NCBI GenBank assembly: GCA_902728285.1
Contig: CACVBU010000913.1
Location: 667,632 to 731,631, forward strand
DNA: 64,000 bases
From: Clytia hemisphaerica
Lineage: Eukaryota; Cnidaria; Hydrozoa; Leptothecata; Clytiidae
Reading direction: 5' to 3'
A program made the position numbers and the translations under genes. Shown one piece after another: positions 6,311-63,139 of the stretch; the first letter of the stretch is position 1; each line of letters starts with the position of its first letter. The notes beneath the pieces are model-generated. The model was not told the DNA's origin, ran no database searches, and worked only from the letters and a program-made list of their open reading frames with translations.

Positions 6311-6899
6311 CAGGGGGGGGGGTACAGAGGCAGGGTACTAACCCATAGGGCACTAACTTGATTTTTCACTCAATTTCTTTTTAGTACCACCCACCCATTT
6401 TTAGTACCGGGTACTACTTCATTTTTGCTGTAAAAAATAGAGACACCACCCCCTAAAATCTTATATTTTACAGATTAGACCAAAAGAGAGGATACTATGT
6501 TAGTTTTTCTGACTGAAATGGACAGATAATTCAAACAAACTATCATGGATTGTCAGAGGCCTTTGTCCTTTGATTTTAATAACACACTTCTTGACCATTT
6601 CGGAAGTTTTGTCTTCACAAAAATCAAAAAATTTCTCAAAAGAGTAAAAAAAAGTTTCTCAATTAAAAAAGATTTCAAATCAAAAAAAATATATTTGAAA
6701 AAACTCAAAATATTACAAAAGACAACTTTTTTTATTGAAAAAGGAGCAAAACTCTGTGAAAAAGTACCCATATAGTACCCTGTACTTGCTAGAAGAGTGA
6801 AAAATACACACCCCCACCCCTAAAGTAGTACCGGAAATGCAAAAATAGACACCACCACCCGGCTATGGGTTAGTACCCTGCCTTTGTACCCCCCCCCTG
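6311..6899. mobile_element. 589-bp TIR element with CAGGGGG ends
   Basis: Left end cagggggggggtacagaggc pairs with the right end gcctttgtaccccccccctg; the repeat continues inward through gggtactaacccatag. The flanks share cttcatc (left 6304-6310, right 6900-6906), a candidate 7-8-bp target duplication, which suits a hAT-type non-autonomous element. It lies just beyond the 3' end of the peptide-precursor gene. Confidence 0.75.
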
Positions 6900-6979: not shown

Positions 6980-9900
6980 CTATTGTTTATTCCTCATCAA
7001 CTTTTTGGTTTGTTTTGGCGTATCTTTCTTTTCGCTTCTTCGTGAAATGAGACGAATTGCTGTTGGTCCAACTTTAGGGATAACCTTCCAAAAAATTGGA
7101 TCTGAAAAGAGACGATCAAAAACTGGTGATCAAAAAGCTTCCAAGAATTCAGCCTTAAGAATAATTCAACAATGAAACAGACGATCGCAGGGCTTCTTCT
7201 AGTTTCTTCTGCGTTTATCTTTATTTATATCGAGATTTTGTTTCAAAAATCTTTCCGGAAACCAGCCGGGTGAAATAAAAAAAATTTCTGACCCGTCCGC
7301 AGACAATGGGTTCATCTATATAGTTCATCATAAAGAAAATCAAGTTGATCGTTCAAGCTATCAAACGTCGTTTGTTTAGATATTCCCGCTTGTAAATCAA
7401 GTTTTGTTCGTTAGTAGTTGATACATTAGTATTCAATGATCTTAAGTTATAAAAAATAGCAAAAAAAATGTTTTTCCGGCCGGCCGCATGAGAGCTTTTT
7501 TCCATCACCCGCATTCCGGATACACTACATTTTTTTGTTTTCGCCTGGCCACCAGCTCAATATTTCTGCAACCAGGGTCTTCTATGTACTATATACTTCT
7601 ATATACTCTTTTTAATTTTAATTTACTGACCTTTTAATTCTTCGTCATCAAAATTTTGGACGTTGGTTTTTCGTGGCATATCTTTCTTTCCACCTTTCCA
7701 GCTTCTTCTTCTATAAAGAATGTGTTTTTGTCCGACATTGAAGTTTTGATGTGCTGCTAAAACCAAAGATACGTTAGGGTCTATAAGAGAAGTTGAGAGG
7801 TTAAAATTTTACATAGTAATAAATTTTCGTTAGTTTCTAGATAAGAAAGATTAGTTGCGATTCAAAGAATTTTCGTAACCTTCTCAATCGTAAAACTTCT
7901 TAGAGTAGTTTTGCAAAGGGTCAATTTTGTTGATCAAAGCTACTTGTGTGCTCAATTTTGTTAATCAAAACTAATTGAGTACCTTTTAATTCTTCGTCAT
8001 CAAACTCTTGGACGTTGGTTTTTCGTGGCATATCTTTCTTTCCACTTCGTCTTCTTGAAAGGAAACGTTTTCCGAGACTAAACGCTGCTGGGATAGCTGA
8101 TAAAGCCAACGGAAGGATAGGGTCTATAAGAGAAGTCGAGAGGTTAAAAGTTTGGATGGCAATGAATTTTCTCAACCTTCTCAATCATAAAATTCCTTAG
8201 AGTAGTTTTGCAAAGGCTCAATTTTGTTGCTCAAAACTAATTGAGTACCTTTTAATTCTTCGTCATCAAACTCTTGGACGTTGGTTTTTCGTGGCATATC
8301 TTTCTTTCCACTTCGTCTTCTTGAAAGGAAACGTTTTCCGAGACTAAACGCTGCTGGGATAGCTGATAAAGCCAATGGAAGGATAGGGTCTATAAGAGAA
8401 GTTGAGAGGTTAAAGGTTTGGATGGCAATGAATTTTCGTAACCTTCTCAATCATAAAATTCCTTAGAGTAGTTTTGCAAAGGCTCAATTTTGTTGCTCAA
8501 AAGTAATTGAGTACCTTTTAATTCTTCGTCATCAAACTCTTGGATGTTGGTTTTTCGTGGCATATCTTTCTTTCCACTTCGTCTTCTTGAAAGGAAACGT
8601 TTTCCGAGACTAAACGCTGCTGGGATAGCCGATAAAGCCAATGGAAGGATAGGGTCTATAAGAGAAGTTGAGTGGTTAAAAGTTTGGATGGCAATGAATT
8701 TTCGTAACCTTCTCAATCATAAAATTCCTTAGAGTACTGTAGTTTTGCAAAGGCTCAATTTTGTTGATCAAAAGTAATTGAGTACCTTTTAATTCTTCGT
8801 CATCAAACTCTTGGATGTTGGTTTTTCGTGGCATATCTTTCTTTCCACTTCGTCTTCTTGAAAGGAAACGTTTTCCGAGACTAAACGTTGCTGGGATAGC
8901 CGATAAAGCCAATGGAAGGATAGGGTCTATAAGAGAAGTTGAGTGGTTAAAAGTTTGGATGGCAATGAATTTTCGTAACCTTCTCAATCATAAAATTCCT
9001 TAGAGTACTGTAGTTTTGCAAAGGCTCAATTTTGTTGATCAAAAGTAATTGAGTACCTTTTAATTCTTCGTCATCAAACTCTTGGATGTTGGTTTTTCGT
9101 GGCATATCTTTCTTTCTTTCCACTTCGTCTTCTTGAAAGGAAACGTTTTCCGAGACTAAACGCTGCTGGGATAGCTGATAAAGCCAACGGAAGGATAGGG
9201 TCTACGAGAGAAAAATTCGTTTTAATTATAAAAAAATCATGGACACAAACTTCGTTGAGTGAGAATGAACGCACTGCTATAAAATGATTTAGCCTTTCCA
9301 GAAAACGGTACACCCTGGTGGAAATTATAAGTATTAGCATTTAAAATCTTAATGAAAAACTTCAAAGAAACAGCACATACGAGGCGGATCCTCTTACTAA
9401 TCAACGAAGGTGATAAATGTTGCTTAGAGGTTTAAAAATTGTTATGTTGGGGACATGGGGATTATTCACTGAAAAATTTCAAATCGTTTTTTTTTTAATA
9501 AGAACAAACTATATAAGAACATAAGGCTTGGATGGCCAGAATTTTAAGAACAAGTTAAGAAAATTTTAAGTCCTTGTGGACTCGAAACACCCAATTTCTT
9601 TGGAAAATGGACCAAGATACTCACAAAATGTTGAAATTGAGAATATGTTAGGAACATTTTTAGGCTCAAAACTCAAAAAGTTAAGAACATCCAAAGGCTT
9701 CAAAAATTTTGAATGTTCTTTTTAAAAAAACGTGTATCCCTAATTTAATATTTTTTCTGGAAGAATTCATTCTGAATCCATAAACTTCGTTCACCTTTTA
9801 GTTCTTCTTCTACATCAACTCCATTTTCGACTTGTTGTTTGATATCAGTCTTTTCAATTGTGTCTTCCTTTTTTTCTTCATTTTGAGATCTTACTTGGAC

Positions 9901-10439
9901 ACCTGAAATATTATCGACGATAGACTTAAGTATTATACCGTATTGATTTCAGAAAGGGCTCTTCAAAAATATCCAATATATCCTCCATCCCATCAGTTTT
10001 CTTGAAATGCCCAAAGTAAGAACACATTTTAAGACTTTTAGTCTATAGTACGTCTGTATGGTTCCAAGACACTTTCAACAATACAATTTTTTTCTTTCCT
10101 TTAAAGAGAATGATATTTAATCATGATATCAATGATAATTTTATGGATCTCTCCTGAAAATTTCACAAAAATTCATCAAGAGGAAAAGAAGTTATGATTA
10201 AAAGGAGTTCTTTACCTACCATTTCTCTGCTACGTTTCCTTACGAGAACCGGAATTTTACCTACCGTTTTTTTTACGGGAAAAAGCGGTCGCTAAAATAA
10301 AAACAATGGAAAATTGTTTGGACGCGTGCGCAGTCGACACTACTAAACTCGGTGTATTGTCGAAATAAGTAGGTAAAAAACAGTAAGTACCTTGTGCTGC
10401 GTAGATGACAAAAGCCACCAGAAATACTGCCTTCAACAT
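6980..10439 (-). CDS. Secreted multi-cassette peptide precursor (tandem cassette exons)
   Basis: Exons, read on the minus strand: 10439-10391, 9902-9795, 9201-9057, 8926-8786, 8655-8515, 8389-8249, 8123-7983, 7780-7631, 7101-6980. Exon 1 encodes a signal peptide (MLKAVFLVAFVIYAAQ). Exon 2 encodes an acidic pro-region ending VEEELK. Each following exon starts and ends in phase 1 and encodes a hydrophobic stretch (PILPLALSAIPAAFSL), then GKRFLSRRRSGKK, then an acidic spacer ending DDEELK. GKR and GKK are classical amidation plus dibasic cleavage sites, so each cassette could release amidated peptides; cutting sites are inference. The 7780-7631 cassette is diverged (50 codons, GGKK). The last exon lacks the Gly and ends in TAG. 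The cassette at 9201-9057 carries a 4-nt insertion that breaks the frame. Cationic host-defence peptide (arminin-like layout) or neuropeptide are both possible; no homologue is recognised by sequence. Confidence 0.75.
7631..9201 (-). repeat. Tandem array of cassette exons plus introns (266-271-bp period)
   Basis: Exon ends fall at 9057, 8786, 8515, 8249, 7983 and 7631, giving periods of 271, 271, 266, 266 and 352. Exons of exactly 141 bp (47 codons) alternate with short introns of 125-130 bp that are themselves almost identical, so whole exon-intron units were duplicated recently or are kept alike by gene conversion. All acceptors read tag|ACCC and all donors AAAAG|GT, joining phase 1 to phase 1, so any number of cassettes can be added, lost or skipped without changing frame. 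Confidence 0.9.
9057..9201 (-). pseudogene. Frame-broken first cassette exon (4-nt insertion)
   Basis: This copy is 145 bp, not 141, because the tcttt tract reads tctttctttctttcc (one extra ttc-t unit at about 9107-9120). The frame changes right after GKK, so the spacer becomes ERYATKNQHPRV followed by a stop. If this exon is spliced in, the precursor ends after one peptide; if it is skipped, frame is preserved because the flanking phases match. It could also be an assembly or polymerase-slippage artefact. Confidence 0.7.
9498..9745. repeat. Left copy of a ~240-bp dispersed repeat, inverted relative to 11517-11738
   Basis: Sequence with taagaacaaactatataaga, then aaaagttaagaacatccaaa, matches the reverse complement of 11517-11738. 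It lies in intron 2 of the peptide gene. Many 'aagaaca' motifs occur inside. Confidence 0.75.
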
Positions 10440-10525
10440 CCCAAAAAATGTTTTTCAATTTTTTTTCTGCTTGTCGTTGTCGTTTATGTTCAACTTGAGA
10501 ATGGTTTTTCAGAATCCAAATCCTT

Positions 10526-10536
10526 AATTTTATACC
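10526..10536 (-). promoter_or_regulatory. TATA box of the peptide-precursor gene
   Basis: On the minus strand this reads ggtataaaatt, about 90 bases upstream of the ATG at 10439. That spacing leaves a 5' UTR of roughly 60 bases, as expected for a highly expressed, regulated secreted-peptide gene. Confidence 0.5.
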
Positions 10537-11516: not shown

Positions 11517-11738
11517 TACACGTTTTTTTATAAGAACATCCAGAATTTTTGAAGCCTTCTGATGTTCTTAACTTTTTGTGTTTTAAGCCTAAAAATGTTC
11601 CTAACATGTTCTTATTTTGACCATTTTCCTAAGAAATATTAGGGTGTTTTTAGAGCTCACAGAGCCTTAAAATATTCTTAACTTGTTCTTAACATTTTGG
11701 CCAGCGAATCCTTACGTTCTCATATAGTTTGTTCTAAT
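11517..11738. repeat. Right copy of the ~240-bp inverted repeat
   Basis: Reverse complement of 9498-9745 with scattered mismatches. A further fragment lies at about 11961-12010 (tagcttgttcttaatatttt). The pair brackets exons 1 and 2 and the promoter of the peptide gene. Confidence 0.75.
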
Positions 11739-12190
11739 ATAAAAAACGTGGTGCCGGTAGGTGTCTATATTCGTCAGAGTGAGGCCCACTGACTATCCCT
11801 ATTAATGTAAGTTAAGTTCATATTTAGCTGACAAGGAAGTAGCTTAATCATGGATCCTTCATGTTAACAGGGAGACTTCATGATAAACTACTTATGTTCG
11901 ACCACACAAGCATCTAGTACAGTAATTTGTTTTTCTTATTGAATCAATCTTCGGTCCATTCAGCATGTAGCTTGTTCTTAATATTTTTGCCATCGAAGCC
12001 TGTAGTTCTCGTAAAAAAAACGTGTACTAGTCGTGTTAATAGTTGACAACCGAGATTTACAATGATTTTATGTAGTTTGAAACGAGTGTAAGTTTTGAAA
12101 ATATCGTCGGCAGTTTAAGACAGTGAGTTTATGTATTCGAGATAAATTGAAGGGAACGGTTTTAAAGAAAAGAAGCCATATCCTCAAAAT

Positions 12191-27500: not shown

Positions 27501-30500
27501 TGAGCGTGAATTCTGATTGGATGAATACCTGAAAAGTAAACAATAGTATGTAAGTATTTTGCCTATCAAAACCTAAAGATTTCTAGGGGGTTTTATTTAC
27601 TTTGCATGACGGTAATTAAGCCTACAAAACACCAAGAAAAAAACCCAACATAGAACAGGTGTATTTTGTAATGCAGAATATGATAGTGTGAATCTTTTTG
27701 AAATTCAATGTTAGGATTTTTTCTCAATGCCCCGTAACTATGCCCGGGGTACCCGTTGCTAAGATTTTATGTTAAAAACGAAAGCTATTACGGCAAAAAT
27801 TAATCAAAAATAGCAATTTTCATAATACCTCAAATATTGATACTTGACTGTACTGACAATCAAACCAATCAAATATTAATATTACCCAGAATTTTGATGT
27901 TCAATTGCATTCGATTTAGTTCGACTGGTTCGATCGTCGATTCAGTTGACGATATATCAGGATTAGAAACCAGGCTAGTCTTACCCCTTTTTTTATCTTT
28001 CCCTTAACAACAATACAATGCTGACACATTGACACAACACATTGACAAGTAATCCTAGCCTGAATATCCATGCTCAAAATTTTAGAAAAAACAAAATTTA
28101 CTTCAACATATACGAAGTTCTAAACTTATAGAGCTTGGTCTCCCTAGAATGAAAGTGCAAACCCATGTTTCCAAAACTTTCCTGGTCAACCCAGGGCAGG
28201 CCAAACAAAAGGTAATAAAAAGGAGTCTTATAAGATCGAAAACACTTTTACTTTCAGACGATACAAGAACACAATCGAACATTAAAACACTCGAACACAA
28301 TTTTTATCAATCAAATCTGAAAATTGCCGTAATATTCGATTGAAATTTGATCACGTTTGATGATCGAATTTCAATCAGCTGTTTGCATTCGTTTGCATTG
28401 GGTTTTCATTTTCGATTAAGCTAATCTTGGGCCTGAATGTCGACGCAACCAACTTCAGATTAAATTCCTCCACTAGAATTTCCTCAAATCAATGAAATGA
28501 GCTTCAACGTAATTATGATGACCTAAAACTCTCTGATCAAGAAATTAAGGAACTAAAATCTATACCCAAAATCTTCTACATGAGCAAATACACAAACCCA
28601 TGCCATAGCAAAGAGATTTTGGTCAAATTTGACAAAATTGTTATTTTATAAGATATTTTACGCTACTATCATTGTCAGAATATATTGGCATAGGTATTTT
28701 AGCATTTTGCAGAGTTTGGGCGAGAGTAACATGTTCAGGCTTGCTTTTTTATCTAATAAAATATTTCGATTTGGGAGGGTTATACTGGCTTTTGGGCTTT
28801 ATTTTCAGCCTAGTGGGTCCTCAGATCCTAAGTTCTTCAATCTTTAAGTCTCATGTTAAAACTCAACCCCTACTTGCAGTTTTTAAAATCTTGAAGTAAA
28901 TTTTTTTGTCACGCAGATGATTGTAGGACAACCCTGTATTATTAGAATTTTGATTTTATTAGGGCATTCTACTCAAACATAATTCTATTTGAATTGAGAC
29001 ATTCCTATATCATTTCAGGCGTGCAACAACATGCACACCCCTCCACACACACCTAAAATCTCAGAGGAGTGCAATCAAGCACACACCATAAATTTAGACT
29101 TTACTATTAAAAGTGGTAGATAGCACGCCTTATTACATATCTAAATTAGCAAAACTCAGATTTTAGGAGTGTGATTGATCACACGTCTGGCTTTTTTAAA
29201 TGGCAAAGCCTGCTATATAGATCGACACAAAAAAGATGATATACTATAAAAGATGTCAACTTGAAAAGGTGTCATTCACAATTACCATAGCAACAAAAAA
29301 AATCCAAAATAGAAATATTTCTTTTGCTGCTGGAGCATGGAATTGTTCTCACGCCTGATTGGCCAAAATGCTCTCTGATGCAGCCATTTTTATAATTTTT
29401 TGTGCTCTGCTACCAAAAAAGTATAGTTCAATAATATGGTGAAACCCAGCTACAGTTGCAGTCTGTTAATGTTACTTTTATCTAATTGCATAAATAATTC
29501 AATAACTATATCTATAAAATGAAACTTTTTTAAAACACATTGCTTGTTCATATAAAGGGGATGATTTCTTTTATGTTTTAATTTTAGATGGCAGCATTGA
29601 CGTCACCAACTCCTCAATAAATCAAAACAGAACAAGTGGAGATGGTGCACCTCCACCTTATACAGACTCTCCTCCCCCATATGAGGGGGTACCTGGGGTG
29701 CCTGCAATTGCTGCAGCTCCCGCACCACCTGGTGTTATGGGAGAACCAACGGTTGTTTGCAGAGTTTGTCAGCAGTTGATTTTCATACGGGGACGTGAAG
29801 GACAAAGAGTTGTAAAATGTTCAAACTGTCACGAAGCAACTGTAAGTTTGTTAAGTATTGTATTGACTTAAGTGTTTTGATATTTAGAGGGTTCTCATGA
29901 AATGATATAATAGTTCTTTATACATGAAATGAATTTTATCTTCGTTTAGCCAATCAAAGCACCACCTGCTGCTAAAAAATACATCAGATGTCCTTGTAAT
30001 GCATTGCTAACATGTCGTGCTACATCTACCAGAATTTCATGCCCAAGACCTAATTGGTTTGTATTTAACATATATTGTCTTCTATCATTCTAATGCTCAG
30101 TCGGATATTTGCAAATTTCTCGAAATAAATTAGATCTTATATTAGGGATAGAATTGACGTTATAAGCTCTAGGTCCATTATTTCAAAAAATTTCATTCCA
30201 ACAAGGGAAATCTATTGGTGCATTGTAATTGGTGCATTGTAGGCCTAAACTGGGTTATATTTTTATTCAAAACATTGGCTCCTTTTTTTTAAGATATGTT
30301 TTAAACTGATTGCCAATAATTGTTTTGTTACTTTTAGTAAACGGGTGATAAACGTTGGTGGTACACCACCGGCTGCAACTGGCCCCATGGTGCCAAATGT
30401 ACAAGCTGGCAATAATTCGAGAATAAGAGTTACTTGTGGGCACTGTAATGAAACTTTTGTGGTAAGCTGTGATGGTTTAGTTTTCTTCATATCATGAGAG

Positions 30501-34281: not shown

Positions 34282-34471
34282 TCAACTAGTATAGTATGAC
34301 CTAAACCCTCGTCATTTCTCTCCTGGACATAGCTTTATAAGGAAATAGTATCAGATTACGTGTTTTAAAAATTCCGTCAACTAGTATAGTATGACCTAAA
34401 CCCTCGTCATTTCTCTCCTGGACATAGCTTTATAAGGAAATAGTATCAGATTACGTGTTTTAAAAATTCCG
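34282..34471. repeat. Perfect 95-bp tandem duplication
   Basis: 34282-34376 and 34377-34471 are identical copies starting tcaactagtatagtatgacc and ending aaaaattccg, so very recent. Confidence 0.9.
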
Positions 34472-34673
34472 TCATTTTTATAAGGCCAGTATCATAATTA
34501 CCGTTTTATCTATGTTTGGATTAACTTCATAAAATAAACAAACGACATTCTGATACGATGGGATGGGATGAGTTGTATTTTTTACTTCTCAAAATTTTCT
34601 TTGTTTATAGGTAGGCGTGTGTGTTGTTATTATGATTCACTGGAGTTTTCTTGGTTCATAGTGTTGTGTTAGC

Positions 34674-55304: not shown

Positions 55305-57653
55305 TCACTCTAATTCACCACTCGGTGTATCAACTATAGCAAAACTTTCGTCATTCGGGTTCGACAAAAACACCACCATGATCGAGATATCATCCCTATA
55401 TAGCCTAGTATCAGGATATTTCATAGAGAGCATGGCTTTCAGGTTAACTTTATCATAACCACCTAAGGCTTGCCGTAACAGAAAACTAGCGACGTTTTCG
55501 TCTTCGACATCCAAGAAGGTATTGGCGTCGATTTGATCGCAATCCGGAACGTTATAAAATTGAGCTTGCTCTTCCATAACTGCCGTTCTACGGCCTTCTA
55601 AATAAGACACAACAAGCTTGACCACCTCATCATTACTAAGCATGTCCCATAAACCATCGCTCGCTAACACAATAAAACGGTCGTACGGCTCTAGTTTGTA
55701 ATGAAAAACCTCAGGCTCTGCTATCAGGTAAGGTGGTGTTAGAGAGGACGAAAATGGTGAATATCTAAGCACGTTCTTGAAAATTGTACATAATTCTTCA
55801 GCTTCTAGCTTGAATTGAATATCACCAAGTGCTCTTAAAGGTGCCAACCGCCCTAATAACCGCCCATATGATAGACATGACCGGGCTTCTTCCGGCGGAT
55901 GTTCGGATATGATCCGCTGAACTTCCGATGAGTTCGATGCTGAATGAAAAAACAAAGTAAAAAAATCAATAAATATTAATAAAATATCAATGAAAAGGCA
56001 TTTTTTACAAGTATGCTTCGTCCCTTCCTTTTTACCCTCTTGCAAAAAGCTGCCAAATTTTACAAGATTCTTATCAATGACATACACAGAATTTAATAAA
56101 TTTTTTTATCAATTTTCAATTATTCATAAACTGGCAGATATGCATATTTTATTCTATTTTACCAAATTTTGATTAAATCCAGACCAAATTATTTTAATAA
56201 TTGAATTTTTCTAGGGTAAACATTTTGTCAATTTTGAATAATTCAAAAGTATTTATCCTTTGCATTAACTTTTTGGGCTATAGGGAAATGATAGTAACGT
56301 AAAGTATAAATTTTTGATCAAATTATTTTTGCACACAATATGCAATATGTTTTAAAAACAACATGGGATACTTAAAAACAAAAAATTCCAGTTTAAAAGA
56401 GCATGCAAGTTATACTGACATGAAACATTTCAAGATAGGATTCTTGAATGAGCTTCAGGTCAAGTGCCCAGAATAAAAGAAAAAGATTCGATTTGAAATC
56501 ACAACATAAGTCATAAATGAAACTTGATAGATATTACAAACCCATTTATTAACTTCAATTTTTAAGTTATCGCGAGTTGTAAAAAACCTCAGTTTAAAGC
56601 TTCCAAGTTAAAAGACTCTTGAATTCAAAATTGGAAAAGAGAAAAAAATAACCAACCTGCAGTGTGGTCATAAGTCAATTGCACTGATCTCCATTTTCCA
56701 TCTTTATTTGATCCTAGAACGGCCCTGCAATCACCAAGGTTTGCTATATGTAGATCATTCTCAATGATATAAGCCACTAAAGCACAACATCCAGAAGTAG
56801 CCAAATGAAAACTTTCTTGACACAGTTTATCAGTATTTGCAAGGTGTAAAATTTCTTTTATCACGTCTTGGTCTAATTTAATAAAAGCCTCTTTAATAGC
56901 ATTACTTATGTTTATGCTGACTTTCTCAGCCTCTGTCTTTCCAAGCATCTGCATTAATGACGCAGTCAGTGGAGAACTTGGCTTTGGTGAGCTCTCGTTA
57001 TGAGTCTGTATCAGATCTTTCATATATTCGTTAACCTTCTCAACCCAAATGTCAGAATTAATAGAATTTTCAATAATATACTCGTCATCATTATTCAAAG
57101 TTTCAACAAAATTTTCTATATCAAGCGTATCTGAAATTTGGCTTTTATCAGCTAGTGAAGTGTGGATATAGTAAGGAAGCCTTGCTTTCATTTGTTCTCC
57201 ATAAACAGAGCCACCATGACCATCTAAAACACCAAATAGCAATCCTTCCTTAAAAGTAGATTGGGTTAAAAACACTTGGTCTTCATTTGGTTCGTTTGAT
57301 TTCAATTGGTTTATTTCACATTTTTCAACCACTTGGGAATCAGGGAATTCCTCAATTGTCATTTCATTTTCACGTATGATTTCATTGACTTCGTTATCTG
57401 TCATTGTTAGTTCACTGGCATCTGGAAATCGGTATTGGCTCTCATCAAAATTAGAAGTGTGTCTAGAGCGGTATTGGTGGCGGCTACCCGGGCGCCGCCT
57501 TAAGTCTTGATTGTTGTTTCCATTATTGGTGCTTGCTATAAAGCTAGCACATCTTCGTCCAAGTGTTTTGAGTGAGAAATATAATTTCCAGTGAGCAGTA
57601 GGACCCCAAGCCCATTGCCTTGAAGAGGCTTTTACGTAATGATAGCCTTTCAT
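55305..57653 (-). CDS. PDP1: Pyruvate dehydrogenase phosphatase, catalytic subunit (PP2C/PPM family)
   Basis: Two exons on the minus strand, 57653-56657 and 55939-55305, join in phase 1 (GCAG|gt ... cag|CATC) and give 543 codons plus stop, close to the ~530-540 of animal PDPs. The enzyme dephosphorylates and reactivates the pyruvate dehydrogenase complex in the mitochondrial matrix. The first ~40 residues are rich in Arg, Lys, Ser and aromatics with no acidic residue until later, fitting a mitochondrial presequence. PP2C motifs in order: NEDQ, GVLDGHGG, ANLGDCRAVLG, LTYDHTA, LLGRLAPLRALGD, AEPEVFHYKL, VLASDGLWDMLSNDEVV, YRDDISIMVV. The metal-binding Asp residues in DGHGG, SDGLWD and YRDD are all present, so it should be active. 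The intron is 717 bp. PDP1 versus PDP2 is not resolved. Confidence 0.93.
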
Positions 57654-60940: not shown

Positions 60941-62485
60941 ATTACACCAACCCTCTTTTTGAGACCATTTTTCCCAAAACTGGTGATTTTTGCAACGTAT
61001 TTTACAAATTGATACTTATAAACATTTCCAAATGACAAAATGTAAAAACAATTTACAATTCAACTGAGGAAATTTTTTATGATTTTCTATCACAAACTTC
61101 TTTAAATTTTTTTTGAAAAAGTCTAACCCTTCTAAATCAAAATCTTATAAAATTGCTTACCCAGTTTGCCCGAATTTTAGGCCTTTTCACATCTTGAAAA
61201 CTGTTAAGATTTTGAGAATGACAAAAGAATAGAGATGACAAAAAAATGATATCAAATCAACAAATATTTATTTTATACCTAGGTATACTAGTACTAAGGG
61301 CTGCTTAAAAAACATTTAAAATTTGGGGGGACCTATTTTTTTGCCTGGGACCTAGACCTGGGCTGACCCTGTGTGGTCGTACAATGGAAGTATTGCATTG
61401 TTGGAATAGAAAAGATAAAAAAGCTAAGTCTATCTTAGCCTTTTTTTCAGCAGTTGTCTGGGGCGGAAGAAGTTATATCGGATCGCCAATAGTCACCATT
61501 TTTCTTTTCCTATCTCTGATACTGTCTTTCTCTTTTCTGACTGTCTGAGCTTCTGAGACTTAGTTTCTCAATTCTGACTAAGTTTTCATACCTGTATCAT
61601 ATTTTGACCGGTCATATCATCGCACCGTGTTGGGTTCGAACCACCATCAAAGAAAGACCTTCGGATTTGGAAACCAACGCCTTATCCGTTCGTTGAGCCA
61701 ATGACGCACAGCAAAGTAATCACACAATTCATAACATATTAAACCAAACTGACCCTAACTGATAATAACCGAACCCCCATCTCATTCCGGGGTGACTATC
61801 AGCGATTCGTGGATAAGAAAAAAACGAAGGTAACTTTAGGCGACTCGATATAACGATGTCCGTCTGGTCTGGTGCGTTAAAAGAACACGAGATCGAGAGA
61901 GAACTTATCAACATCACAAAAAATACACAGGAATTTGGCCTGAAAAGCTGAAAAGGACTGTAAAACTGCTCTAAGCTAAACTTCACAAAAATTTCTTGGT
62001 TAAAACTTTAATCTCCAATAACTTGAACAATATAACACACAAAACTAAATAATCCCACCTCCAGACATCCCTCCCTGTTGTTCCTGAGATGACTCTTGTG
62101 GCAAATTTTCGGATTAAGATATCAGAGAAGAATAAGAAATTTAGATCCTGAACATTGTGGGGAGCAGACTTACCTCTAATTTTTTGATCTGGCAATATAT
62201 ACAATGTTGGCGATAGGTGCTGACAGCTGAGCTGGAATTTTTTTGCCTTCTCGACTGTTCAACCAAATTTTCTGAGAAGGTGAAAGTGAAAGAAGAATTG
62301 AAATAAATTATAGATTTTTCTCAATGCAACTGCATAAATTAATCATGGCTACGTGTATCATAAATTTCTTTCAGACTGTTTCTACGGGAAATCTTCTTGT
62401 CAGTGTGGCCACACTTTCGAACAATCGTGTAATTATTTTTACGATCAAAACATCAAAATCAAAACAAATCAAAACATAAACAAAC
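60941..62485. other. Stretch holding a tRNA-derived SINE, no gene
   Basis: No supported exon apart from the LRR gene beyond it. Open frames at 61729-61986 and 61983-62204 on the minus strand have no family features. Confidence 0.4.
61621..61710 (-). repeat. tRNA-derived SINE head or tRNA pseudogene
   Basis: On the minus strand, ttggctcaacgaacggataa forms the A-box region and ggtggttcgaaccc the B box. The anticodon arm is mispaired and the acceptor ends do not match. Downstream on that strand, repeated cagaa/cagtcagaa sequence (61500-61600) looks like a SINE tail. Confidence 0.6.
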
Positions 62486-63139
62486 ATGGTGGATGCAGAA
62501 AATCGCATGCTTGTAGCAGCACTAAAAAGAAAGCCTCAAAATCTCAATTTCAGCAATAAAAATCTGTCCTATTTGCCTGAAAGCATTGGGAAAATCACAT
62601 CGGTCAGATGCCTAGACTTGAAAAATAATCATTTAACAGAGCTTCCCGATGACTTGTCAAGTTTGGCAGAGGTAAGAGTGTTTTTTTATAATCCAATATT
62701 TTTTGAAATTTCCCAGATTTCAAAAGAGAGACAGCTAGCCGTCAGTTTTAATACACGATCACTGCCAGAAATTCTACCACTCAGTGTCTCAGTGTACTTT
62801 AATTTTACAAGCTTAAAGAAATAGTTTTCAAGAAAAAACTTATCATTGACATGAATGGTACTACACAGTCAACAGTGGTAAGAAAAATCCATACAGTAGC
62901 GTAGTAAAATAAAAAAATATATATAATAGACAAATTTTAAAAAACTATTACATACTCCCTGAAACTTTTCTTCAGCACTCTGTTGAAACTACTTCTTTTA
63001 TTGTATTTTCAGCTCAAATTAATCAATTTGGGAAATAATAAATTCAAAGAAATTCCACATGTTCTGAGAGAATTCAAATGTTTGGAGACATTACATTTGT
63101 TTAATAATGAACTTCATGAATTATGCCCCAGTACTTTAG
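62486..63139 (+). CDS. Leucine-rich-repeat protein, N-terminal exons only
   Basis: Exon 1 (62486-62671) and exon 2 (63013-63139) join in phase 0; exon 2 ends in phase 1 at a gtgaga donor and the rest lies beyond the window. The ATG has an aacaaac leader and no upstream in-frame Met. After MVDAENRMLVAALKRKPQNL the sequence shows at least four LRR units of the LxxLxLxxNxLxxLP type: LNFSNKNLSYLPESIG, VRCLDLKNNHLTELPDDL, LKLINLGNNKFKEIPHVL, LETLHLFNNELHEL. The plain units and absence of a signal peptide suggest an intracellular LRRC-type protein used for protein binding. The exact orthologue cannot be named from these ~104 residues. Confidence 0.8.

Follow-up and report, generated by a model that had tools for sequence, protein, structure and literature searches.

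The window analyzed here, a 64,000-nt stretch of Clytia hemisphaerica DNA, carries on its minus strand a peptide precursor gene in which the exon itself is the repeated unit. With moderate confidence, this gene is explained as functional and as belonging to a hydrozoan family specific to its lineage, whose products would be secreted, amidated and most likely membrane-active defense peptides. The exon anatomy of the gene, its reading frames, its relatives in the same genome and a motif common to their start regions were observed directly in the DNA. The anatomy and frames support the proposal of the initial annotation that the locus encodes a multi-copy secreted peptide precursor assembled from repeated exons.

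Gene Anatomy

Exon-by-exon reading of the sequence gives nine coding exons on the minus strand, from position 10439 down to 6980. All eight introns are bounded by GT and AG, and every junction is in phase 1, splitting a codon after its first base. The core promoter contains a TATA box (TATAAAA, 10528..10534), followed by the 15-nt start-region motif CATTCTCAAGTTGAA (10489..10503). The signal exon and acidic pro-exon expected before the cassettes are both present. Exon 1 (10439–10391; 49 nt coding, 3′ end in phase 1) encodes MLKAVFLVAFVIYAAQ(G), with the signal peptide MLKAVFLVAFVIYAAQG judged by eye and not by a predictor, while exon 2 (9902–9795; 108 nt, phase 1-1) encodes the pro-region GVQVRSQNEEKKEDTIEKTDIKQQVENGVDVEEELK, which has a net charge of −5. 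Next come cassette exons c1 (9057..9201; 145 nt), c2 (8786..8926), c3 (8515..8655), c4 (8249..8389) and c5 (7983..8123), the last four being 141 nt long and phase 1-1. As had been described, one diverged cassette and one terminal cassette follow. The peptide half of c6 (7631..7780; 150 nt, phase 1-1) has diverged, and its spacer half is almost unchanged relative to c2–c5; the terminal cassette exon (DPIFWKVIPKVGPTAIRLISRRSEKK..; 6980..7101) has 122 nt including the stop codon, and its last codons are overlapped by an AATAAA at 6986..6991.

The repetition extends beyond the coding sequence. Cassettes c2–c5 differ pairwise at 1–4 of 141 positions, and the introns running from c1 to c5 (130, 130, 125 and 125 nt) are near-identical to each other, so that the unit of duplication is an exon together with its intron. 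This tandem unit measures 266/271 nt and is present in 4.7 copies with 97% matches. One peptide per exon, symmetric phase and tandem arrangement were found throughout the array, with the 145-nt c1 excepted. The processing sites are less uniform than the initial annotation had assumed for every cassette, as GKR and GKK occur together in c1–c5 only; c6 has GQK and GGKK, and the terminal cassette has EKK with no preceding glycine. The acidic spacer, also ascribed to each cassette, is missing from the terminal one.

Cassette c1 and Two Possible Precursors

Cassette c1 contains an extra 4 nt, a duplication inside an AAAG run directly past the GKK codons, which shifts the frame and leads through the tail ...SGKKERYATKNQHPRV* to a stop within the exon. 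With c1 included, the precursor has 94 aa, ends in ...FLSRRRSGKKERYATKNQHPRV* and contains one complete peptide. With c1 skipped, an open frame of 330 aa results, containing six DP-starting peptides and nine GKR/GKK sites. The lengths of c2–c6 are divisible by three and these exons are phase 1-1, and c1 brings a stop of its own. As far as the frames indicate, splicing could therefore yield either of two precursors, a short one of 94 aa with one peptide or a long one of 330 aa with six, and the suggestion of the initial annotation that splicing could set the mix of peptides is plausible. Of the five near-identical cassettes that had been proposed, four are freely interchangeable, since the frame of c1 is broken.

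The frameshift could reflect decay or an assembly error. A decaying locus, in which the frameshift kills the long product and the other cassettes are recent neutral duplicates, would account for a frame that stops at 94 codons if c1 is always spliced in. Usual donor sites have A at +4 and G at +5, and the cassette donors of the window gene (GTACTC) lack both, as might also be seen in decay. This reading is nevertheless very unlikely, as the TATA box, start-region motif, signal, stop and AATAAA are all intact, and c2–c6 and the terminal exon are all open. Even in c1 the peptide is encoded in full as far as GKK, and the resulting 94-aa precursor is similar in size to the one-cassette relatives described below (86–90 aa).

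The spacer sequence GAAAGATAYGC (window 9100–9125) is read as KDMPR/KDTPK in c2–c6 and the terminal exon, and as ERYA in the frameshifted c1 and the two-cassette relatives. In this comparison the DNA alignment exceeded codon shuffles only slightly (c3 8, c6 4, c1 3 and terminal exon 264 of 500). The ERYA tail of c1 may represent an older reading frame common with the two-cassette genes, with chance as the alternative.

Relatives in the Same Genome

The initial annotation had recognized no homologue, a statement overturned by a search of the 417 Mb assembly (951 contigs), in which one-cassette relatives, two-cassette relatives and a sister gene were found. The family counts are lower bounds; the homology searches score best candidates only. 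At least six one-cassette genes are intact (four on C1, one on C195 and one on C722). In each, a phase-1 intron of 188–644 nt separates the signal exon from the pro-region and a peptide ending in RRRSGKK*, and the product totals 86–90 aa; in the gene at C1:113371 the first ATG lies two codons in. Family remnants were found at two sites on C1 and two on C291, the latter with an internal stop. At least eight loci encode two basic, DP-starting peptides in one exon and fall into two clusters, four on C1 (81357–124878) and four on C228 (62752–70659). In one of these loci (C1:124630) the beginning of the exon is not in frame, and another (C1:101550) has a longer tail; spliced sequences were made for three of the eight. 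A signal peptide is common to the window gene and these relatives, and the window signal exon resembles those of the other genes.

The sister gene is located on the minus strand of C599 (~717586 down to 712500) and encodes 470 aa in a signal exon (MKMLKAVFLVAFVVYTVKG), an 84-nt pro-exon, one 1203-nt cassette exon and a terminal exon. All of its junctions are in phase 1, matching the exon plan of the window gene (signal, pro, cassette, terminal), and its signal peptide, read by eye, is the nearest among the relatives to that of the window gene. The cassette exon contains ten in-frame, head-to-tail cassettes (e.g., DPILPALFGAASLAPYVIKAGKKIFRGDMPKNLKELVDQE), nine with GKK and one with GKN, and its first eight 120-nt units show 0–8 pairwise differences.

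Shared Start Region

Eleven family promoters can be aligned over the TATA box. TATAAAA is present in ten, the deviating one being C1:92587, and the start-region motif is likewise exact in 10 of 11; in the window gene it lies 24 nt beyond the TATA box. The exact 15-mer CATTCTCAAGTTGAA has 18 matches in the 417 Mb genome, 15 of them at family loci including the window gene, versus three matches for the same pattern read backward as a control. Fourteen of the 18 are family loci that were already known and one more led to C599; two broken loci, C1:95751 and C291, are included among the family matches. Within 1.3 kb of the matches on C260, C470 and C552, no signal exon of the family was seen. Conversely, the exact 15-mer is missing at three family loci, C1:117483 (in the alignment), C1:124630 and C228:65732. 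The likeness of the signal exons and the occurrence of the 15-mer at 14 other family loci, as opposed to three control matches, place the window gene in the family beyond chance.

Constraint and Homogenization

Sequence divergence offers some insight into how the family has been maintained. For the six one-cassette genes the summed pN/pS is 0.46 (pro-region 0.52, peptide 0.41; 15 non-independent pairs), suggesting that these genes are under constraint at the protein level. Within the window gene, the peptide halves of c3 and c6 differ with pS 0.52 and pN 0.24, and their spacer halves show 0 synonymous and 3 other changes. The 3′ half is thus homogenized in the manner expected from gene conversion.

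Processing Sites and Peptide Properties

According to PMC8638164, cnidarian precursors are processed at the C-terminus of the peptide at GR, GRR or GKR, and the search script of that paper also accepts GKK. The N-terminus is described there as XP or pGlu, often behind an acidic residue. A DP start is found in all six window peptides of the 330-aa frame, each preceded by K and not by an acidic residue, and in all ten C599 peptides, each preceded by E.

In the two genes with cassette arrays, the internal GKR, which was not found in the one-cassette genes, probably marks a genuine cleavage site and would release DPILPLALSAIPAAFSL-amide and FLSRRRS-amide. This assignment is made because, in a MAFFT alignment, the GKR within the window cassette lies opposite the GKK of C599. 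Standing against it is the BLAST alignment of window and C599 cassettes, which is ungapped at that point and leaves GKR three residues off GKK. The predicted amidated product of C599 is DPILPALFGAASLAPYVIKA-amide. Cleavage at GKR would yield mainly a 17-mer amide of neutral charge, together with a 7-mer, and such products would fit antimicrobial action less well; left uncut, the peptide would be a 27-mer amide. The uncut peptides have charges of +3 to +8 (an amide being assumed, except for the terminal one) and the pro-regions −5 to −12, while the two-cassette genes encode 18- and 20-mers with charges of +5 and +8.

Structural and database searches were also used to probe the peptides. None of ten family peptides and fragments had a helical moment above that of shuffles, and of three yardsticks only magainin did; helical moment was consequently dropped as support for an amphipathic helix. 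AlphaFold places a helix at residues 3–9 and 11–29 with low confidence (mean pLDDT 61). A Pfam search with a shortened composite of the precursor returned no family at cut-off and three sub-threshold names (best E 0.08), and a PDB sequence search returned one weak chain match (E 0.07); all of these are regarded as chance. A cytolytic venom peptide from nematocytes or gland cells would be in keeping with a hydrophobic N-terminal part, a basic C-terminal part and a clustered family. This is the least likely of the readings considered, as the mature peptides contain no cysteine, Pfam gave no toxin family match, and no link to nematocytes appeared in this analysis.

Proposed Mode of Action

The favored explanation, a family of defense peptides, suggests the following course, in which we infer processing, amidation, the defense role and any alternative splicing. 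First, the precursor would enter the secretory path, with the acidic pro-region and spacers holding the peptides inactive. Next, a prohormone convertase would cut past GKR/GKK, the basic residues would be trimmed, and the glycine would be converted to an amide. The N-terminus of the peptide would be set at DP, an XP group like those that are protective in cnidarian peptides. The products, hydrophobic and then basic, would most likely serve as membrane-active defense peptides in the manner of the Hydra arminins. Unequal crossing-over of the cassette-plus-intron unit would have raised the copy number, yielding more peptide per transcript.

By analogy, defense appears more likely than signaling because the family is clustered and its peptides are mostly basic, like the Hydra antimicrobial families. 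The main rival, which we consider unlikely, is a neuropeptide preprohormone that would supply repeated, amidated signals for release by neurons, like Hydra GRFamide preprohormone-C. The hallmarks given in the available part of PMC8638164 are found in the window gene, i.e., a signal peptide (by eye), nine GKR/GKK sites, similar mature peptides and an XP start, and the repeats fall under the rule of at least three GKR/GKK/GR sites with at least two copies sharing four of the five preceding residues. The ten copies in C599, nine with GKK and each behind E, point the same way, as do the exon-per-peptide layout and stop-bearing first peptide exon also described for Hydra GRFamide preprohormone-C (PMC8638164). 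By inspection, however, the peptides include none of the hydrozoan families treated in that part of the paper (X1PRX2amide, GRFamide, GLWamide, LRPamide, RWGamide, IFRamide and PKVamide). Furthermore, the family genes are many, arranged in tandem and mostly encode longer basic peptides, as illustrated by the +5 and +8 charges of the two-cassette 18- and 20-mers.

Genomic Surroundings

The GC content of the window ranges from 29 to 38% per 2 kb, and no Rfam match at gathering scores was obtained within the 64 kb. The signal and pro exons are flanked by two inverted arms, 101 and 105 nt long (9490–9729 and 11523–11746; 82–88% complementary), which are perhaps a mobile-element pair. Just past the end of the gene is an inverted repeat (6314–6348 and 6863–6897), 97% complementary over 35 nt and containing a G/C run. 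Elsewhere in the window are a 95-nt unit in two copies with zero differences (34282–34474), exons of a PP2C-type phosphatase (55305–57653, minus; Pfam), a Tmemb_55A-type exon (29518–29871, plus; Pfam) and an exon at 62480–62824 (plus) with weak leucine-rich-repeat matches under the Pfam cut-off.

The mitochondrial contig of the assembly has 14,551 bases and 27.9% GC, and its cox1 contains three TGA codons that encode tryptophan. Its genes, named from their translations, lie on one strand in the order cox2, atp8, atp6, cox3, nd2, nd5, nd6, nd3, nd4L, nd1, nd4, cob, cox1, which is the hydroidolinan hydrozoan order and marks the source as a hydrozoan; genome size and GC make Hydra itself unlikely.

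Comparison with Known Systems

The initial annotation had likened the layout to that of cnidarian arminins or amidated precursors, and this likeness was borne out in layout, not in arminin sequence. Hydra arminins have a signal peptide, an acidic pro-region, a cationic C-terminal peptide and a GKK end, and occur in tandem families (available parts of PMC10945409, PMC12011183 and PMC4820302). The one-cassette relatives likewise have a signal peptide, an anionic pro-region and a cationic C-terminal peptide, parts that the window gene has in repeated form, and their GKK* end matches that of arminin 1a (VGKK). The clusters on C1 and C228 likewise resemble the tandem clusters of Hydra AMP genes (PMC10945409). 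In contrast to the window gene, repeated cassettes are not mentioned for Hydra arminins in the parts of these sources available. Arminins are reported there not to occur outside Hydra, homologues being absent from Hydractinia and Clytia (PMC10945409), and their C-terminal part is said to be scarcely conserved among themselves. BLASTP of mature arminin 1a against a one-cassette peptide and a two-cassette stretch gave no alignment at E ≤ 100; because these two family peptides failed to align, arminin identity of the mature peptide was rejected and the family is not filed as arminin. A full-text literature search with pieces of family and arminin sequence gave a match by the arminin piece only. 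The placozoan arminin-like AMP1–4, compared by description only, are also secreted, acidic then basic, and end in a glycine for amidation; unlike in the window gene, repeated cassettes are not mentioned for them in the available part of PMC12013895.

According to PMC10945409, the antimicrobial families of Hydra are orphan genes that lack relatives even in Hydractinia and Clytia. The present family shows that another hydrozoan has its own family of the same layout. It also provides a full series in one genome, from one cassette to two per exon, ten per exon, and seven cassette exons (six readable in frame). This series allows one to ask how peptide dose rises, and whether introns between copies add control by splicing, for which repeats within an exon offer no opportunity. 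The one-cassette members would be overlooked by any scan demanding at least three processing sites, such as the script in PMC8638164.

The exon as repeated unit had been set against most known precursors. This description is true of the window gene, but precedents exist and peptide-exon multiplication is already known; it is the in-exon sister gene on C599 that makes the comparison unusual. No cnidarian defense-peptide gene of exon-array build was found among the matches listed in a search of open-licence literature (titles and abstract starts). In Nasonia, the defensin-like nasonin-6 has multiplied peptide exons without processing signals (PMC2853521, in part). The magainin and caerulein precursors of Xenopus laevis, which are defense-peptide precursors, grew as their peptide exons were duplicated in tandem, and the copies have hardly diverged (PMC3731216); the window gene is similar in both respects. 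In contrast to the window gene, the Xenopus genes are vertebrate and derived from a CCK-type gene, and a sequence relation is not claimed.

A close parallel in layout is Hydra GRFamide preprohormone-C, in which a signal exon is followed by one peptide copy per exon and splice variants are known; its exon two encodes a single peptide followed by a stop, which prevents it from being joined to the exons beyond (PMC8638164). Both genes are hydrozoan, have a peptide per exon, and carry a stop in the first peptide exon that gives or, in the window gene, would give a short one-copy form. They differ in that the window peptides have no resemblance to the RFamide-type peptides, the exons of the window gene are near-identical, and its one- and two-cassette relatives are cationic. 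It is possible, though we propose this tentatively, that sister genes of a young defense-peptide family have taken two routes to high copy number, exon duplication in one and in-exon repeats in the other, and that the stop-bearing c1 serves as a splice switch convergent with that of the Hydra GRFamide gene.
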